Positions 4,633 to 26,173 of a DNA stretch of 64,000 nt are shown here, in pieces; within the stretch, counting starts at the first letter, position 1, and the number at the start of each line of letters is the position of its first letter. The DNA lies in NCBI GenBank assembly GCA_016932735.1, contig JAFGCI010000008.1, positions 1 through 64,000 of the forward strand, in the 5' to 3' direction. The position numbers were made by a program, and so were the translations under genes. The notes below the pieces were generated by a model. That model saw only the letters and a list, made by a program, of their open reading frames with translations. It ran no database searches and was not told the origin of the DNA. Source of the stretch: Candidatus Aenigmatarchaeota archaeon. GTDB taxonomy: Archaea; Aenigmatarchaeota; Aenigmatarchaeia; QMZP01; QMZT01.

Positions 4633-5031
4633 TCAGCAATCAACCACTATCTGCGAGTTCCGCCAGTCATAGAATACTACTATATTCCTTGTGGTCCAGT
4701 CATCGCAGTCCCATCTCCCGCAGGTTCCTGTCGGGAAGTCCGCAGGACTGAAAGTTCCGCTTATTATGTAGCAGATTGCATTCGTTCCGGGATTGTATTC
4801 CTGAACAACCTTATTGCAGAGCATGCAATATTTCTCGATGTCAGCAGTTCCCTGGACGCCGCTCACATCGACTTTCTGCGCGACTATATTCCCTTCTTTG
4901 TCTTTCTCCGGTATTATGTCGTTTATCAGAGTCCTTCCGGAAAGATAGAAAGTGCTTATCAGAGATACGGCGACAACGACTACGATAATCAATATTATCA
5001 TTTTTACCGGATATTCAAGCGCGAGGCTCAT
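4633..5031 (-). CDS. Small pilin-like membrane-anchored protein
   Basis: 132 residues: an N-terminal hydrophobic helix at about 11-30 (MIILIIVVVVAVSLISTFYL) preceded by a 10-residue leader with a single Lys (EYPVK), then a compact ectodomain with paired Cys (CMLCNK, CGRWDC) and a C-terminal Cys. Its start overlaps the stop of the upstream gene by 4 nt, indicating translational coupling. The leader is not a textbook class III signal. Probably a minor pilin-type component of locus A. Confidence 0.65.
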   Translation of the reverse strand: MSLALEYPVKMIILIIVVVVAVSLISTFYLSGRTLINDIIPEKDKEGNIVAQKVDVSGVQGTADIEKYCMLCNKVVQEYNPGTNAICYIISGTFSPADFPTGTCGRWDCDDWTTRNIVVFYDWRNSQIVVDC

Positions 5032-5525
5032 TCCACTATCACCTTCCCTTCTTCATAATCATAATGGACAGCAAGTATAGACCTGCTCTCTACATCACCC
5101 GCTCTCCAGATAAAGTTGTCCCGATACTCGGCGGGTATTACGTCCATGAAATCCGTCTCGGTAACCTGTCCGCTCACTTCATCAAGATAAATCTCGAAAC
5201 AGACGATGTCCTTATCCTCGGTCCCGTCTCCTGATATCTTCCAGCAGGCAAGGCCATAAGAAGCGACCCTTGTCGAAATGGCCTGTATATTGGTGTCGCG
5301 GATGTTGACCCTTTCGAAGGTTTTCATCTCATCGACCCTGCAGAATGACGGGGGCGTCGGTCTCGAGTCTTCCGAGAAAGGTATTATAGCGACAAAGCCG
5401 TTATACATATAGCAGTAGCCGCCCTGAAGCGCCTGAGGGAACGGCGTGAAAAGATAAAGAAGGACAAGAAGTGAAGCAACGCCGATAATAATTTCGGCCA
5501 GCAATGTAAAAGTCATCCCTCTCAT
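5028..5525 (-). CDS. Pilin-like protein
   Basis: 165 residues. MRG-MTFTLLAE followed by a hydrophobic segment (IIIGVASLLVLLYLF) looks like a short class III signal peptide with cleavage after Arg-Gly. The ectodomain is about 135 residues with few Cys and no recognised domain. The start overlaps the preceding gene by 4 nt and the stop overlaps the following gene by 4 nt, so four pilin-like genes here are translationally coupled. Likely a minor pilin or pseudopilin. Confidence 0.68.
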   Translation of the reverse strand: MRGMTFTLLAEIIIGVASLLVLLYLFTPFPQALQGGYCYMYNGFVAIIPFSEDSRPTPPSFCRVDEMKTFERVNIRDTNIQAISTRVASYGLACWKISGDGTEDKDIVCFEIYLDEVSGQVTETDFMDVIPAEYRDNFIWRAGDVESRSILAVHYDYEEGKVIVE

Positions 5526-5990: not shown

Positions 5991-8207
5991 TTACAATCCT
6001 CCACTTTGTATCATGTCTGTGATTATCCCGCCGAATATGAAGCTTGCGACAAGGAATGTTCCGATGTAAATGATAGCGGCGATTATCATGTTCTTTCCGA
6101 TTGTATAGTCTCTTGCGACCGTATCAAAACCGTTGTCGACTCCGTTTAACAGGAATGATATAAGGATAACGACCTCTATGCAGTAGAGGCCTATGATTCC
6201 CTGAAGGACTGTAAGGGGTATGAGCTTGCTCATGTCGCCGACTATCATATCCATTATTCCGGTGACTCCGCCAGTGCTTCCTCCGGACATAAATCCTGTG
6301 CTGAATATTTCCATGAGCTCGTCGAGCTGTTCGCCCAGCTGCTTAAGCATATTAAGGATGAAGACGCCAAGGGATGCTGTAATAGCGGTTACCATCGGAA
6401 CGATGAACTGCGCAAGCATCTCAAGGGATGAGCGGACCTTTGTCAGAAGCCTCTTTAGCATGTTCTCTACATTCTCCATGTTGTTAAGGTAACTGACTAT
6501 CGATTTTATTGCCTCCGCAGAGGTCTTCGTGCCTCTTTCAGTTGATTCAATAACTATCCTTAAAATCTCGCTTATCATCGGCGACGGGAAGTATTTCAGG
6601 ACGCCGTAATTCGGATCAAGTATCGCCGCCTTGAAAGTCATTCCCATGTTTATTATGTTATCATACATCCTCCTGAAGAACAGGAAAACGAGGGAGCTTT
6701 CCTCCATTCTTTTGGATTCTTCAAGGCTTCTTTCGACTGCGGCTTCAATCGGTATTCCTTCAGTAAGGAAGCTTCCCAGCATGAAAAGACCTACCTGGAA
6801 ACTCTTCTCAATCTCCTTTATCATGTTCCTGAGCTTTATCTTCTGCTTGCTCCTTCCGAAGAAATAAATCACAATCCCTACAGCGAATGCTATGGTTACA
6901 GCTAAAGTGGATGTTATATTGTCAAAGCCATACGCGCAGTTCTTGCAGAAATCGTAGTTTATGTCCATGTCATAGAATTCCTTGTTTACGCACTGGAAAC
7001 AGGCCGGCGCGTAAAGCTCGGATTCCCTGTATACGACTTTCTTGACAAGGTCGGGGTTGACCGCTCCTGCATAATCTCCCGCAAGGTTTATGAAATGGAA
7101 AAGCCCGGGCAGGATTATTACTAACAATACTATTATCGCAACGGGCAAAAGAGGTATAAGGAAATTTTTCGGCGGATTCGATTTCGGGACCGTGAACTTG
7201 TAGTAGCCTTCGGGAGCCATATCCGGATGCTTGCTTATATCCGGAGCCTTGAAAGCTCCCGGACGCTTCGAGAGGATTCTCCGCATGAACCAGAAGAGCA
7301 TCGCAGGGAGGACTATAAGATACCCTATTGCAAGGTCGGTGGATTCGACTCCATTGTGGACGAATATGGAAATGATGGGGAACATGACAAGGCCCATCGC
7401 TGGCATCAGTATTCCCATTGCATAAATGATGCTAATCTTTGGATAGACATTCTCCACATATTCCTCCATCTCCGTCTTGGTCTTTTCGAGGATGTAATTG
7501 ACAGTCTTTGAAATCGTCTCCTCCCTCTCCTGCTGGGTCGGCTGGTAGAGGACCTGATAAAGCATGTCCATTGCCTTGACGAAGTTGGGAGCCCACTTGA
7601 CCCACAAAGCAGTCTTCTCAGAAATGGCGTCCATTATCTTTACCTGCTTTCTCATTTCAAGGTCCCAGAGAATCTTTCTTATGTCGTCTGTTATCGGCCC
7701 TGAAGAGTATCTTGATGCGAACATCAGCGCCTTCTCAAAGTTAGGGGCAATCCTCATGTAGATGGACATGTATAACAGAATCTGTATGGATTCGTCGGCG
7801 GCTTTGACCCGGAGGACATCTGCGTTATACTGCGGCAGCGAGAACAGATACCATGCCGCCAATCCGGGAAGGACCAGAAGAAAGAACAGCTGCATGCTCC
7901 CCTGGGTGAACGGGAATGCAATCAACCCTATCACAAAAAGAATTCCTGCAACCGCTATCACGGAAGAGAAGACGTCGGTCGTGGTTATGTTCATTCTTGA
8001 GAACATTACGCTTTGGGAAAGCATCTTTTCGATGGCTTCGGGAGGCTTTATGCGGAGCTTTGAGCCGAAGAAAGCATAAATCTCTTCCATCCTGTCCTTC
8101 CTGAGGGTTTCTTCATTGACATAGCTCTTATACTCCATTGAATCTGTTGATGTTTTGGAAGGATCGCTGACGTCAAAAAAATCGAACTCATCCACCAAGT
8201 AGGCCAC
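5991..8207 (-). CDS. Type II secretion F-family (FlaJ/TadC-like) membrane protein, tandem fusion
   Basis: 738 residues containing two GspF/T2SSF-type domains (about 150-330 and 490-690), each with cytoplasmic helical bundles and flanking membrane helices (about 85-127, 265-310, 355-375, 440-460, 580-600, 650-730). Between them is a loop with two CxxC pairs (ACFQC near 402 and FCKNC near 418) that may bind metal or form disulfides. This is the membrane platform of an archaellum/pilus-type machine. FlaJ and TadC are usually single-domain, so this looks like two platform proteins fused. No ATPase is encoded next to it. The start is uncertain: GTG at 8207, or a leaderless GTG at 8195 placed about 25 nt from a TTATATAG box. 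Confidence 0.82.
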   Translation of the reverse strand: MAYLVDEFDFFDVSDPSKTSTDSMEYKSYVNEETLRKDRMEEIYAFFGSKLRIKPPEAIEKMLSQSVMFSRMNITTTDVFSSVIAVAGILFVIGLIAFPFTQGSMQLFFLLVLPGLAAWYLFSLPQYNADVLRVKAADESIQILLYMSIYMRIAPNFEKALMFASRYSSGPITDDIRKILWDLEMRKQVKIMDAISEKTALWVKWAPNFVKAMDMLYQVLYQPTQQEREETISKTVNYILEKTKTEMEEYVENVYPKISIIYAMGILMPAMGLVMFPIISIFVHNGVESTDLAIGYLIVLPAMLFWFMRRILSKRPGAFKAPDISKHPDMAPEGYYKFTVPKSNPPKNFLIPLLPVAIIVLLVIILPGLFHFINLAGDYAGAVNPDLVKKVVYRESELYAPACFQCVNKEFYDMDINYDFCKNCAYGFDNITSTLAVTIAFAVGIVIYFFGRSKQKIKLRNMIKEIEKSFQVGLFMLGSFLTEGIPIEAAVERSLEESKRMEESSLVFLFFRRMYDNIINMGMTFKAAILDPNYGVLKYFPSPMISEILRIVIESTERGTKTSAEAIKSIVSYLNNMENVENMLKRLLTKVRSSLEMLAQFIVPMVTAITASLGVFILNMLKQLGEQLDELMEIFSTGFMSGGSTGGVTGIMDMIVGDMSKLIPLTVLQGIIGLYCIEVVILISFLLNGVDNGFDTVARDYTIGKNMIIAAIIYIGTFLVASFIFGGIITDMIQSGGL

Positions 8208-23120: not shown

Positions 23121-23128
23121 GAAAGACG
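23121..23128. repeat. Target-site duplication, left copy
   Basis: GAAAGACG directly precedes the left terminal inverted repeat. An identical copy follows the right repeat at 25041-25048. Eight base pairs is the usual duplication length for IS6-family elements. Confidence 0.85.
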
Positions 23129-23151
23129 TGAGCTGTTAGGTTTTCTGGATA
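23129..23151 (+). repeat. Left terminal inverted repeat
   Basis: Begins TGAGCTGTTAGGTTTTC and is the exact reverse complement of 25018-25040 over 23 bp; beyond that the similarity decays (GATTA against GATTG with one shift). Confidence 0.9.
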
Positions 23152-23194
23152 CGATTAAGTTAGTTTAACGGCTAATTGACTCGGAGGTGGGTTA

Positions 23195-23884
23195 ATGAGA
23201 TATTTAAGCAACATTTACGAAAAATACCATAAGGGGATTATTATAGGGGCGAAAATAGGGTTAATTTTAGGATTTCTGGCTATAATAATATTGGTCATTA
23301 CGAATGTTAATGGGGAAGAAAGGATAATAACATCATTTACTTGTAAATCATTAATATCCAATGGGAATGTCGATTTCTACAACCTTTCGCAATACCCTAA
23401 TTATAAAAATTATGAAGAAGCGGCCTTTGAATGTGATATTATCTTTGTAAAGAAAAATAATGAAACCTACAAGAATTGTTCTTTTCATTTTTCTGGTGGC
23501 GGTTATGATGAAGACGACCCAATCAATGAAACATTAATGGAATTATTTAATAATGGGGAAAATGCTTATGATGATTGGGGATTTGAATATGAATTTATCA
23601 AATATGCAAAAGGCAATTTTAACGGAATTTTCACTTTAATTTGTGATGGAGAGGAAATAGATAAGGTCGATATAAACCTAGAACTCATTGAACGACCAAA
23701 AGAAGATAAATCGGTTTTCTGGACAGCACAAATAGCTCTTATTCTGGCTATATTTGGTATAGCAACATCGGTTTACCAAGGTAAATTAATTGAAAAACTC
23801 GAAGAAAAAAAATTATTTTGGCTACCATTAGTAATTTTTATTATTATATTTCTGGTGTGGCTCTATTTTGTTCTTATTGCATAA
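23195..23884 (+). CDS. Membrane protein carried by the insertion sequence
   Basis: 229 residues behind a strong SD (GGAGGTGGGTTA-ATG). Helix 1 (about 15-38, IIIGAKIGLILGFLAIIILVI), an acidic Cys-containing outer domain of about 125 residues, then two helices (about 172-192 and 207-227). No family recognised. It lies wholly between the inverted repeats, so it is a passenger, or was captured. Its 3' end overlaps the convergent transposase gene by 11 bp. It may help maintain or protect the element, but nothing in the sequence shows how. Confidence 0.7.
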   Translation: MRYLSNIYEKYHKGIIIGAKIGLILGFLAIIILVITNVNGEERIITSFTCKSLISNGNVDFYNLSQYPNYKNYEEAAFECDIIFVKKNNETYKNCSFHFSGGGYDEDDPINETLMELFNNGENAYDDWGFEYEFIKYAKGNFNGIFTLICDGEEIDKVDINLELIERPKEDKSVFWTAQIALILAIFGIATSVYQGKLIEKLEEKKLFWLPLVIFIIIFLVWLYFVLIA

Positions 23885-24737
23885 TAGCTGACAATCTTAT
23901 CAAATCCAGCCATCTATTTTCGCCTAAATTCAGACTCTGACCAGCCAACTCGCAGGGAACCTTCGCAGTAGTGCTATGCTTCTCTATGTAATTGTGCTGT
24001 AAGATAATACCAGCCATTAAGATAGGAGCTGACCAAAGAGCCTTAAAACCTCTGAAATCATTAACCCTGTCTTTGACCTTCATAAAGACTGTTTCAATCC
24101 TTACATTGTGTTTTTTGGTCTTTGAGTAATTGACTACTGAATGAGCCACTTTGTCTTTAAGGAATCGGCTGTAAAAGACCTTCTTAAAAGCCTTCGGATA
24201 AAAGGGCAAAGCGTCAGTCTGAATGTAATAGGGCTTTTTGGTGGCTTTAATCCTTTTCATAAACTCGGTTGCATCGGCTAAATTCTGCGATTTATTCGAG
24301 TACAAGGTCGCATTGATGAACCTTGTATCCCAATCAACACAACACCAGAATATGTCTTTTCTGTTCTCACAATCCACTTCGGTCTCATCAGCATACATCT
24401 TACCGCTTAATTGTGGCTTGATTTTCTGCACGAATTTCTGGACTTTTAAGACGTATTTCCTGACCCAATCCAATATGGTTACATGGCTTACTTTGATGCC
24501 AAAATGCCTTCTTAACTGGTTCCTCATCTTTCGGCTTGAAAGATTGGACAGATACATATCAACGCACATTGTGATAATCTCTTCTTTATTGTGCATATGC
24601 CAGAATCCTAAATCAACTATGAAAGTATGACCGCAATTATTGCACTTCATTCTCTGCTGTTTGCCTCTTTTCTTAGTGTAATTGAACCCTCTTTTGACGG
24701 TTGCGGTTCCCTTACAGCACGGGCATTTTGCGTTCAT
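23874..24737 (-). CDS. DDE transposase, IS6/IS240-like
   Basis: 287 residues. An N-terminal zinc ribbon (CPCC at 5-8, CNNC at 32-35) is followed by a helix-turn-helix-like region (FGIKVSHVTILDWVRKYV) and a DDE catalytic core: Asp117 in MYADETEVD, Asp175 in YIQTDALPFYPKAF and Glu215 in NVRIETVFMKVKDRVNDFRGFK. It cuts and joins the element's ends. The frame is intact. It is divergent from the AbrB-like gene; the shared 103-bp promoter region carries repeated GATACC motifs. Confidence 0.9.
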   Translation of the reverse strand: MNAKCPCCKGTATVKRGFNYTKKRGKQQRMKCNNCGHTFIVDLGFWHMHNKEEIITMCVDMYLSNLSSRKMRNQLRRHFGIKVSHVTILDWVRKYVLKVQKFVQKIKPQLSGKMYADETEVDCENRKDIFWCCVDWDTRFINATLYSNKSQNLADATEFMKRIKATKKPYYIQTDALPFYPKAFKKVFYSRFLKDKVAHSVVNYSKTKKHNVRIETVFMKVKDRVNDFRGFKALWSAPILMAGIILQHNYIEKHSTTAKVPCELAGQSLNLGENRWLDLIRLSAIMQ

Positions 24738-24748
24738 TTAATCACCTA

Positions 24749-24833
24749 TTAGATACCTAATTATAATTAGATACCTAACAATATAAAGGTATCGGTTAGA
24801 TACCGAAAAGTATATAAAGCTTTCGATACCTAA
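24749..24833. promoter_or_regulatory. GATACC iterons between transposase and AbrB-like gene
   Basis: Four direct GATACC motifs start at 24752, 24770, 24799 and 24825. The first two lie in identical TTAGATACCTAA units, and an inverted GGTATC at 24788 makes a palindrome with the third. A TATA box for the AbrB-like gene (TATATAAA, 24811-24818) lies between the last two, about 25 nt before the ATG. Binding by the AbrB-like protein would let the element control its own transposase; this is inferred. Confidence 0.6.
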
Positions 24834-24840
24834 TATACTT

Positions 24841-25002
24841 ATGAAGCTCCAAAGTCACATAAGCAGGGAATACAAGGGAACCAAATACGAGAAATACTGG
24901 ATAGTCATACCCAACAAAATGGTTGAAAAACTGAAGTGGAAAACAGGTGAGGAGCTTGAGGCGGAGGTCAAGAACGGAAAGCTTGTGATTGAGAAAGATT
25001 AA
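24841..25002 (+). CDS. AbrB/MazE-like DNA-binding protein of the insertion sequence
   Basis: 53 residues. The pattern YWIVIPNKMVEKLKWKTGEELEAEVKNGKLVIEK is the swapped-hairpin AbrB/SpoVT fold found in archaeal antitoxins and regulators. It is divergent from the transposase and inside the inverted repeats. TATA-to-ATG spacing indicates a leaderless mRNA. Probably a repressor acting on the GATACC repeats; no toxin partner is recognisable unless the membrane passenger serves as one. Confidence 0.75.
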   Translation: MKLQSHISREYKGTKYEKYWIVIPNKMVEKLKWKTGEELEAEVKNGKLVIEKD

Positions 25003-25017
25003 TTTTTTTTCAATCAA

Positions 25018-25040
25018 TATCCAGAAAACCTAACAGCTCA
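25018..25040 (-). repeat. Right terminal inverted repeat
   Basis: Exact reverse complement of 23129-23151, starting 15 bp after the AbrB-like stop codon and followed at once by the right copy of the GAAAGACG duplication. Confidence 0.9.
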
Positions 25041-25048
25041 GAAAGACG
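25041..25048. repeat. Target-site duplication, right copy
   Basis: GAAAGACG, identical to 23121-23128 at the other end of the insertion sequence. Confidence 0.85.
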
Positions 25049-25084: not shown

Positions 25085-26173
25085 ATGTCGCGGATAGTCA
25101 TGCTTATCGACCTCGACTCGTTCTACGCAGCGGTCGAGGAGAAGAGAAACCCCGAGTTAAAGGGAAAGCCTTTAGCTGTATGCATGTACTCGGGGAGAAC
25201 TGAAGACTCTGGGGCGATTGCGACAGCAAATTATCCGGCAAGAGAACTCGGAATCCATTCCGGAATGTCCATAAAGCAGGCGAAGAAGCTTGACAAGGAA
25301 AACATTGTCAGATTCCTTCCGGCAGACAGGGACTATTACAAACAGGTTTCAGACAGGATAATGGAAATCTACCAAAGGTATGCTGACAGATTCGAGCAGG
25401 TCTCAATCGATGAAGCATATCTTGACGTGACCGAAAAATGCAGGACGTTTGAGAAAGCGATAAAGCTTGCGGAAAAGATAAGGAAGGCGGTCAATGATTC
25501 CGAAGGAATCACCTGCACAGTCGGAATCGGTTACAATAAGATTGTCGCAAAGATGGCTTCCAAATTAAAGAAACCGGACTCATTAAATGTCATTGACCAT
25601 AACGATTTTGAAAAGATAATACAGAAGCTTCCTGTTGGGAAGCTCCATGGTATCGGGGAAAAGACAGAACTTATTCTGAAAGATTTCGGCATCCGGACGA
25701 TAGGCGACCTTGCGAAATTCGACCTCGGGAAACTGAAAATGGCTCTCGGCCCGACGAAGGCGGAACAGTTCTGGAATCATGCCAACGGAATCGATGAGGA
25801 AGAGGTCGAGAACGAAGACAAGAAGCAGATGTCAAAATTAAAGACGCTAAAAGAGAACAGCAGGGACGCCGATTATATTTTCGCGGGTTCTGAAGAGTTC
25901 GCGGAAATACTCCAGAAAAGGCTCGATGAAAGAAACATAGGCTTTAAGACAATTGCAATAATCATCGTTACGACGGGACTCAAGACGAAGACTAAGGGCA
26001 TGACTTTTTCAGGAACTCAGAAGACCGTGAAGGCTGTCCTTCCGGAATACAAAAAATTGCTTGAGGAATACCTTTCCGAGAATCCAGACGATGTCATCAG
26101 AAGGTTTGGAATCCGCATCGGCGGATTCGACGAGTTCAAAGAGCAGAGGACGCTTGCGGATTTTGGGAAGTGA
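25085..26173 (+). CDS. dinB: DNA polymerase IV (Y-family, Dpo4-like)
   Basis: 362 residues from MSRIVMLIDLDSFYAAVEE (an earlier ATG at 25064 adds seven). Catalytic residues are visible: the first Asp in IDLDSFYA, and SIDEAYLDVT with the Asp-Glu pair. HhH motifs are in LHGIGEKTELILKDFGIRTIGDLAKF, and a little-finger domain follows (about 240-350). It copies past DNA lesions. A TATA-like ACTATAAATTG at about 25,072-25,082 implies a start nearby. The insertion sequence ends just upstream and may have altered its control. Confidence 0.93.
   Translation: MSRIVMLIDLDSFYAAVEEKRNPELKGKPLAVCMYSGRTEDSGAIATANYPARELGIHSGMSIKQAKKLDKENIVRFLPADRDYYKQVSDRIMEIYQRYADRFEQVSIDEAYLDVTEKCRTFEKAIKLAEKIRKAVNDSEGITCTVGIGYNKIVAKMASKLKKPDSLNVIDHNDFEKIIQKLPVGKLHGIGEKTELILKDFGIRTIGDLAKFDLGKLKMALGPTKAEQFWNHANGIDEEEVENEDKKQMSKLKTLKENSRDADYIFAGSEEFAEILQKRLDERNIGFKTIAIIIVTTGLKTKTKGMTFSGTQKTVKAVLPEYKKLLEEYLSENPDDVIRRFGIRIGGFDEFKEQRTLADFGK

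Follow-up and report, generated by a model that had tools for sequence, protein, structure and literature searches.

The element described here resembles the archaeal branch of IS6 (clades a-d in PMC6807381, Harmer and Hall 2019; Ai-Aiv in PMC7986276, Varani 2021) in its DDE domain with the E--F---K-R signature, in the CTGT at positions 5-8 of its ends and in its 8-bp target-site duplication. The signature is that of the archaeal IS6-like transposases, which have been proposed for separation from IS6/IS26, and GG tips are also absent from many archaeal members (PMC6807381). Little is known about transposase control in the family (Varani et al. 2021, PMC7986276), and that review names a passenger in just one IS6 member, ISDsp3. 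This member exemplifies the transporter ISs (tIS), single ISs that likewise hold an extra gene beyond the transposase inside their repeats. The clostridial long IS6 elements (clades h/i; VII/VIII) resemble the present element in that their IS6-type transposase is extended at the N terminus by a zinc-binding segment; they are bacterial, 1.2-1.8 kb in length, and have no regulator reported in the cited IS6 papers. Two more remote systems resemble it in their control genes: in Tn3-family transposons with integral toxin-antitoxin modules a small DNA-binding protein is retained by the transposition module as the remaining cargo is exchanged (PMC7157771), and CRISPR-associated transposons controlled by CvkR encode their own transcriptional repressor, which is MerR-type and cyanobacterial (PMC9938897).

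We analysed a 64,000-nucleotide stretch of contig JAFGCI010000008.1 (the window) and conclude, with a probability of about 0.8, that the 1912-bp element at 23129-25040 is a complete nanoarchaeal IS6-like cargo transposon with a built-in AbrB autorepressor. Unlike the archaeal IS6 branch, the nanoarchaeal elements have an N-terminal zinc ribbon, an encoded regulator and cargo, and they measure 1.9-8.3 kb as against under about 1 kb. Compared with the tIS, passengers are present in every mapped element, often as several genes, beside a conserved regulator. The window element differs from the Tn3 modules in that it has no paired toxin and has operators at the transposase promoter itself, and from CvkR in that its regulator is an AbrB-fold protein on archaeal TATA promoters. 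No description of such elements or of an AbrB switch was found in the open-access literature searched.

An intact element with three genes

The first-pass annotation of the window had described an intact IS6-type DDE element with perfect 23-bp ends and an 8-bp duplication that holds, within 1,912 bp, a transposase, an AbrB-like gene and a gene for a three-helix membrane protein of no recognised family. Closer analysis upheld this description. The two arms are complementary at 23/23 nt (100%), and the window has no other perfect 23-bp inverted pair with a span of 0.8-9 kb; the duplication is identical (8/8) at both flanks (Table 1). Three ORFs inside the ends are intact; the gene for the 229-aa protein and the transposase gene are convergent with an 11-bp overlap, and abrB is divergent from the transposase gene. 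The same annotation had proposed a search for the 23-bp end elsewhere, and no further end was detected in the genome of 1,176,130 bases with up to 3 mismatches allowed; the element has a copy number of 1 in the 1.18-Mb genome. Because it is a single copy, the argument for its activity rests on the perfect duplication, which is compatible with recent movement.

Table 1. Features of the window element and dimensions of its complete relatives (window positions; lengths for relatives)
Feature	Position or length	Strand	Remarks
Target-site duplication, left copy	23121-23128		GAAAGACG
Terminal inverted repeat, 23 bp	23129-23151	+	TGAGCTGTTAGGTTTTCTGGATA; CTGT at positions 5-8, as in relatives
P0001, orphan membrane protein, 229 aa	23195-23884	+	passenger; 3 hydrophobic helices
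Transposase, 287 aa	23874-24737	-	N-terminal four-Cys zinc ribbon; DDE domain D117-D175-E215, K222 at E+7; E--F---K-R signature
Likely ribosome-binding site of transposase	24740-24747	-	AGGTGATT; read from sequence
Operator 1	24749-24760		TTAGATACCTAA; genome-wide pattern count
Operator 2	24767-24778		TTAGATACCTAA; directly downstream of transposase TATA box
TATA-like box of transposase promoter	24780-24787	-	TTTATATT
Operator 3	24796-24807		TTAGATACCGAA; upstream of both TATA boxes
TATA box of abrB promoter	24811-24818	+	TATATAAA; ~30 bp before ATG; leaderless transcript predicted
Operator 4	24822-24833		TTCGATACCTAA; between abrB TATA box and ATG
AbrB/MazE-fold DNA-binding protein, 53 aa	24841-25002	+	PF04014; proposed autorepressor and transposase repressor
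T-run 3' of abrB	25003-25010	+	terminator-like; read from sequence
Terminal inverted repeat, 23 bp	25018-25040	-	
Target-site duplication, right copy	25041-25048		GAAAGACG
L036 element	3899 bp		duplication CAAAAAGA
L035 element	4255 bp		duplication GGAATTAG
L037 element	3027 bp		duplication GCTTTTAT
L039 element	3526 bp		duplication TAATATTT
L040 element	3294 bp		duplication AAAAAACC
L041 element	3849 bp		duplication GGTGTGAA
L042 element	8295 bp		repeat ATCAAACCG reads 9 bp

The transposase matched the DDE_Tnp_IS240-type domain (PF13610) with 55.6 bits against a cut-off of 27, and all three catalytic residues are present, with K222 at the K/R position. We call it IS6-like, of the archaeal branch, because its signature, ETVFMKVKDR, matches the archaeal one of PMC6807381; the catalytic domain, the 8-bp duplication and the CTGT of the terminal repeats also agree with that branch. 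The signature is kept in 5/5 transposases of group 1, which comprises the window element and its nearer relatives, and the group-2 transposases differ from it. The score with the NCBIfam IS6 family transposase (equivalog) model was 104.9 bits, below the curated cut-off of 125, and the element tips in group 1, the window included, read TGAG and not the GG of IS6/IS26 sensu stricto, with which the group-2 ends begin. An IS1-type model gave 44.4 bits, below its curated cut-off of 100, and the likeness to the IS1/IS1595 domain is restricted to the zinc-binding N-terminus. No near relatives of the transposase were found in the viral contigs searched, and the plasmid matches listed for it were IS6 transposases of <30% identity.

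The hydropathy profile of P0001 supports three hydrophobic helices, one near the N terminus and two near the C terminus, and between them lies an acidic domain of ~130 aa with 4 Cys. No relatives were detected in 145 genomes, viral contigs, phages, plasmids, PDB sequences or PHROGs, no P0001-like sequence was present in any relative locus examined, and all Pfam matches were below cut-off. A structure predicted without an alignment had a pLDDT of 59, and this poor model gave no Foldseek match with E<0.1. The GC content of the gene is 30%, compared with 40% for the transposase and 44% for the remaining window. As in transporter ISs, the gene lies within the terminal repeats and the cargo varies among relatives, and P0001 is best explained as cargo of the element, of putative dispensability. 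A CorA-like identity suggested by PADLOC (16.8 bits) was rejected, as the match covers only the C-terminal part with its hydrophobic helices.

Operators between the transposase and abrB genes

The AbrB-like protein matched PF04014 (33.1 bits, cut-off 24.7) and scored 22.5 bits with TIGR01439, under the cut-off of 28.3. The 12-mer TTMGATACCKAA occurs at 4 sites in the whole 1.18-Mb genome, all of them within the 85 bp (24749-24833) that lie between the transposase and abrB, and its reversed control gave 0 sites genome-wide. The regulatory module is unexpectedly clear.

Related elements and their cargo

Relatives of the transposase were drawn from Woesearchaeota records and from genomes of the same class; the class-level and phylum-level searches covered 156 genomes each, apparently the identical set. 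Ends were located by a scan that accepted spans from 800 bp and required terminal repeats plus a duplication. Seven complete relatives with both ends and a duplication, 3.0-8.3 kb in length, were obtained across Nanoarchaeia (Table 1), and the scan found no ends at several more distant transposase loci. The transposases fall into group 1 (L035, L036, L037 and L038, with 57-63% identity to that of the window) and group 2 (L039, L040, L041 and L042, with roughly 31-35%). Group-1 ends read TGAGCTGTWARGT..., and group-2 ends begin GGTTCTGT and mostly resemble GGTTCTGTAACGTCTTCGGTTGG; CTGT is found at positions 5-8 in both groups, with TTGT at one L040 end. The 8-bp duplication is exact in the window element and six relatives, L042 being the one with a 9-bp repeat.

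Cargo is present in 8/8 elements with both ends mapped (the window element and the seven relatives). The statement in the first-pass annotation that IS6-type elements rarely carry passengers thus applies to IS6 generally, with its single named case, but not to the nanoarchaeal group, where every mapped element carries cargo. An element free of cargo would have been expected to show up in the scan, whose lower limit for a span was 800 bp. DNA methyltransferase genes are carried by L035, L039, L040, L041 and L042, the last with a BglII-type endonuclease in addition, and an HNH protein is carried by L040, a Fic-domain gene by L036, ArsR, DUF302 and DsrE by L037, and a membrane-anchored trypsin-like protease by L039. 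Several relatives carry small membrane proteins. In the window, L036 (84 aa), L038 (106 aa), L039 (the protease) and L040 (44 aa), a membrane-protein gene is convergent with the transposase gene and the 3' ends overlap; no sequence likeness was detected among these proteins of L036, L038, L039 and L040 and P0001, and a common role is possible.

Regulators and promoter layout in other loci

An abrB gene stands beside the transposase in 4/4 group-1 elements with mapped ends. In the window, L035 and L036 the two genes diverge. L037 has abrB relocated to a co-directional position upstream of the transposase gene, and both separate promoters retain the operator layout there. The operators themselves vary, TTAGATACCTAA in the window and L036, TTGGGTACCCGA in L035, TTAGATGCCTAA in L038 and TCGGGYRCCGAA in L037, while the layout is constant, and in genomes G138 and G120, as in the window genome, the element-specific variants are confined to the promoter region. 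With a looser pattern in the L036 genome, 4/5 matches were in the promoter region and the reversed control gave 4 matches. In three of the four group-2 elements (L039, L040 and L041) the divergent slot holds a ribbon-helix-helix gene of 44-51 aa, as judged from weak profile matches and sequence inspection; no recognised regulator was found in the divergent slot of L042.

A search of 145 genomes with AbrB only gave six loci outside the window (L093, L094, L095, L096, L097 and L098), and the operator layout was present in five of them, L097 being the one without it. Since these loci were chosen by protein similarity and not by operator, the agreement of their operators is not circular. At L093 (777-1710) the AbrB relative is 58% identical, has an operator identical to that of the window and neighbours an NYN-domain gene; the neighbour at L094 has no family. 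At L095 (725-1677) and L098 (393-1556) a LAGLIDADG endonuclease gene diverges from that of the AbrB relative, and the promoters have the operator-TATA-operator order. The L095 locus may adjoin ribosomal RNA. At L096 (469-1668) the AbrB relative is divergent from a transposase of a different family, DDE_Tnp_1, and the layout is kept; the ends of an element were not found at L096.

An operator pair spaced 24-28 bp apart was present in 15/17 promoters examined, mostly flanking a recognisable TATA-like box. In the canonical order, operator-TATA-operator-ATG, the operator centres lie near -39 and -13 and the TATA box near -30 relative to the ATG, positions that imply leaderless transcripts. The two exceptions were L094, with one operator within the stretch measured and three, 26 bp apart, upstream of the gene, and the window transposase promoter, in which the TATA box is ~50 bp before the ATG and which has a longer leader, a ribosome-binding site and extra operators. 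A G[AG]TA[CT]C pair at 24-29 bp spacing occurred once in 144,740 control bases. We judge it somewhat more probable than the contrary that selfish DNA in DPANN archaea is generally regulated by a portable autorepressor module of the AbrB type, made up of a protein of ~53-65 aa and operator-TATA-operator promoters (centres ~25-28 bp apart), which would serve LAGLIDADG endonucleases and a DDE_Tnp_1 transposase as well as IS6-like cargo transposons, and that, with operators diverging, each element controls itself.

Proposed mechanism and alternatives

We propose that these elements have a conserved core, made up of a zinc-ribbon DDE transposase and a small regulator that binds DNA and is usually encoded divergently, that the promoter region holds the operators, and that other genes would be carried between the core and the ends. 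Judging from the sequence, AbrB most likely binds the near-palindromic TTAGATACCTAA operators bracketing the TATA boxes, and bound AbrB would block the access of TBP/TFB or RNA polymerase (the archaeal pre-initiation complex) at both promoters. Transposase would thereby be kept low and the AbrB level held steady through autoregulation, whereas a copy newly arrived in a cell that lacks the repressor would be expected to give a burst of transposase until the repressor accumulates. The transposase would work on the CTGT-containing ends and insert the element with an 8-bp duplication.

The first-pass annotation had listed abrB as a passenger, and AbrB/MazE folds are common antitoxins; one Tn3 transposon has an AbrB antitoxin (PMC7157771), and L036 carries a Fic-domain gene. 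That abrB was captured, or is an antitoxin to the membrane protein as toxin, and is kept for addiction instead of transposition control is nevertheless very improbable. The transposase gene separates the 229-aa gene from abrB in the window, which leaves no shared operon, and abrB remains constant among relatives whose cargo changes completely; the operators are found at both promoters, that of the transposase and that of abrB, and the module also stands beside homing endonucleases and another transposase. The toxin-antitoxin reading was rejected, as abrB stands by itself in the element, without a co-directional partner. Because it is kept across differing cargo, has its own element-specific operators and has its divergent slot taken by a ribbon-helix-helix gene in group 2, abrB belongs to the transposition core. 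AbrB could instead activate transposase transcription or be a structural partner at the promoter, and operators do lie upstream of TATA boxes too, where activators can sit. We consider this unlikely, given that an operator lies between the TATA box and the start codon at nearly every promoter, that of abrB included. This position is usually repressive in archaea.

The recurrence of membrane proteins tail-to-tail with the transposase in five elements could mean that the 229-aa protein is part of the element's machinery or fitness strategy (membrane-level exclusion, or contact with the episymbiont's partner cell) and not random cargo. This we regard as doubtful: the arrangement is missing from L035, L037, L041 and L042, P0001-like sequences are absent from the relative loci and the 145 relatives, and its GC content is unlike that of the transposase. 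It is also unlikely that the element is an old, inactive insertion that has kept its ends by chance; its single copy and the lack of an empty site among the genomes compared would fit such a history, but identical ends, an exact duplication, three intact reading frames and the presence of the catalytic residues argue against it. In the nanoarchaeal group, the putative repressor and clear operators come with the element, which opens its control to direct in vitro testing. Should unrelated selfish genes use this switch too, the small genomes of DPANN archaea would share a modular restraint on mobile DNA, and the elements could plausibly carry restriction-modification and stress genes from one such genome to another.

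Neighbouring and accessory genes

A dinB-like polymerase gene (25085-26173 of the window) starts 37 bp past the duplication, and the insertion may have displaced the original dinB promoter. In the one congener compared, the upstream neighbour of dinB is, by inspection, a ribosomal-protein L3-like gene and not the methyltransferase of the window. An empty site, which the first-pass annotation had proposed to look for, was not found in the genomes compared.

In L036, a fifth operator-like site, TTAGATACCCAA, was noted at about 6773-6784, inside the element and upstream of a cargo gene. It hints that AbrB may control cargo as well, but may be due to chance, since the reversed control gave as many as 4 matches in that genome. 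The element of L042 (2171-10465), by far the largest of its group at 8.3 kb, carries an exonuclease-like gene and others besides its BglII-type restriction enzyme and methyltransferase. Proteins of 174-192 aa that are convergent with a DNA methyltransferase (L035 2266-2808, L039 4488-5063 and L041 316-837) are ~28% identical and have no Pfam match; possibly they are new restriction enzymes common to both transposon groups. Besides AbrB, L035 encodes a further small protein at 4892-5059, which belongs to DUF2080, 'putative transposon-encoded protein' (PF09853).
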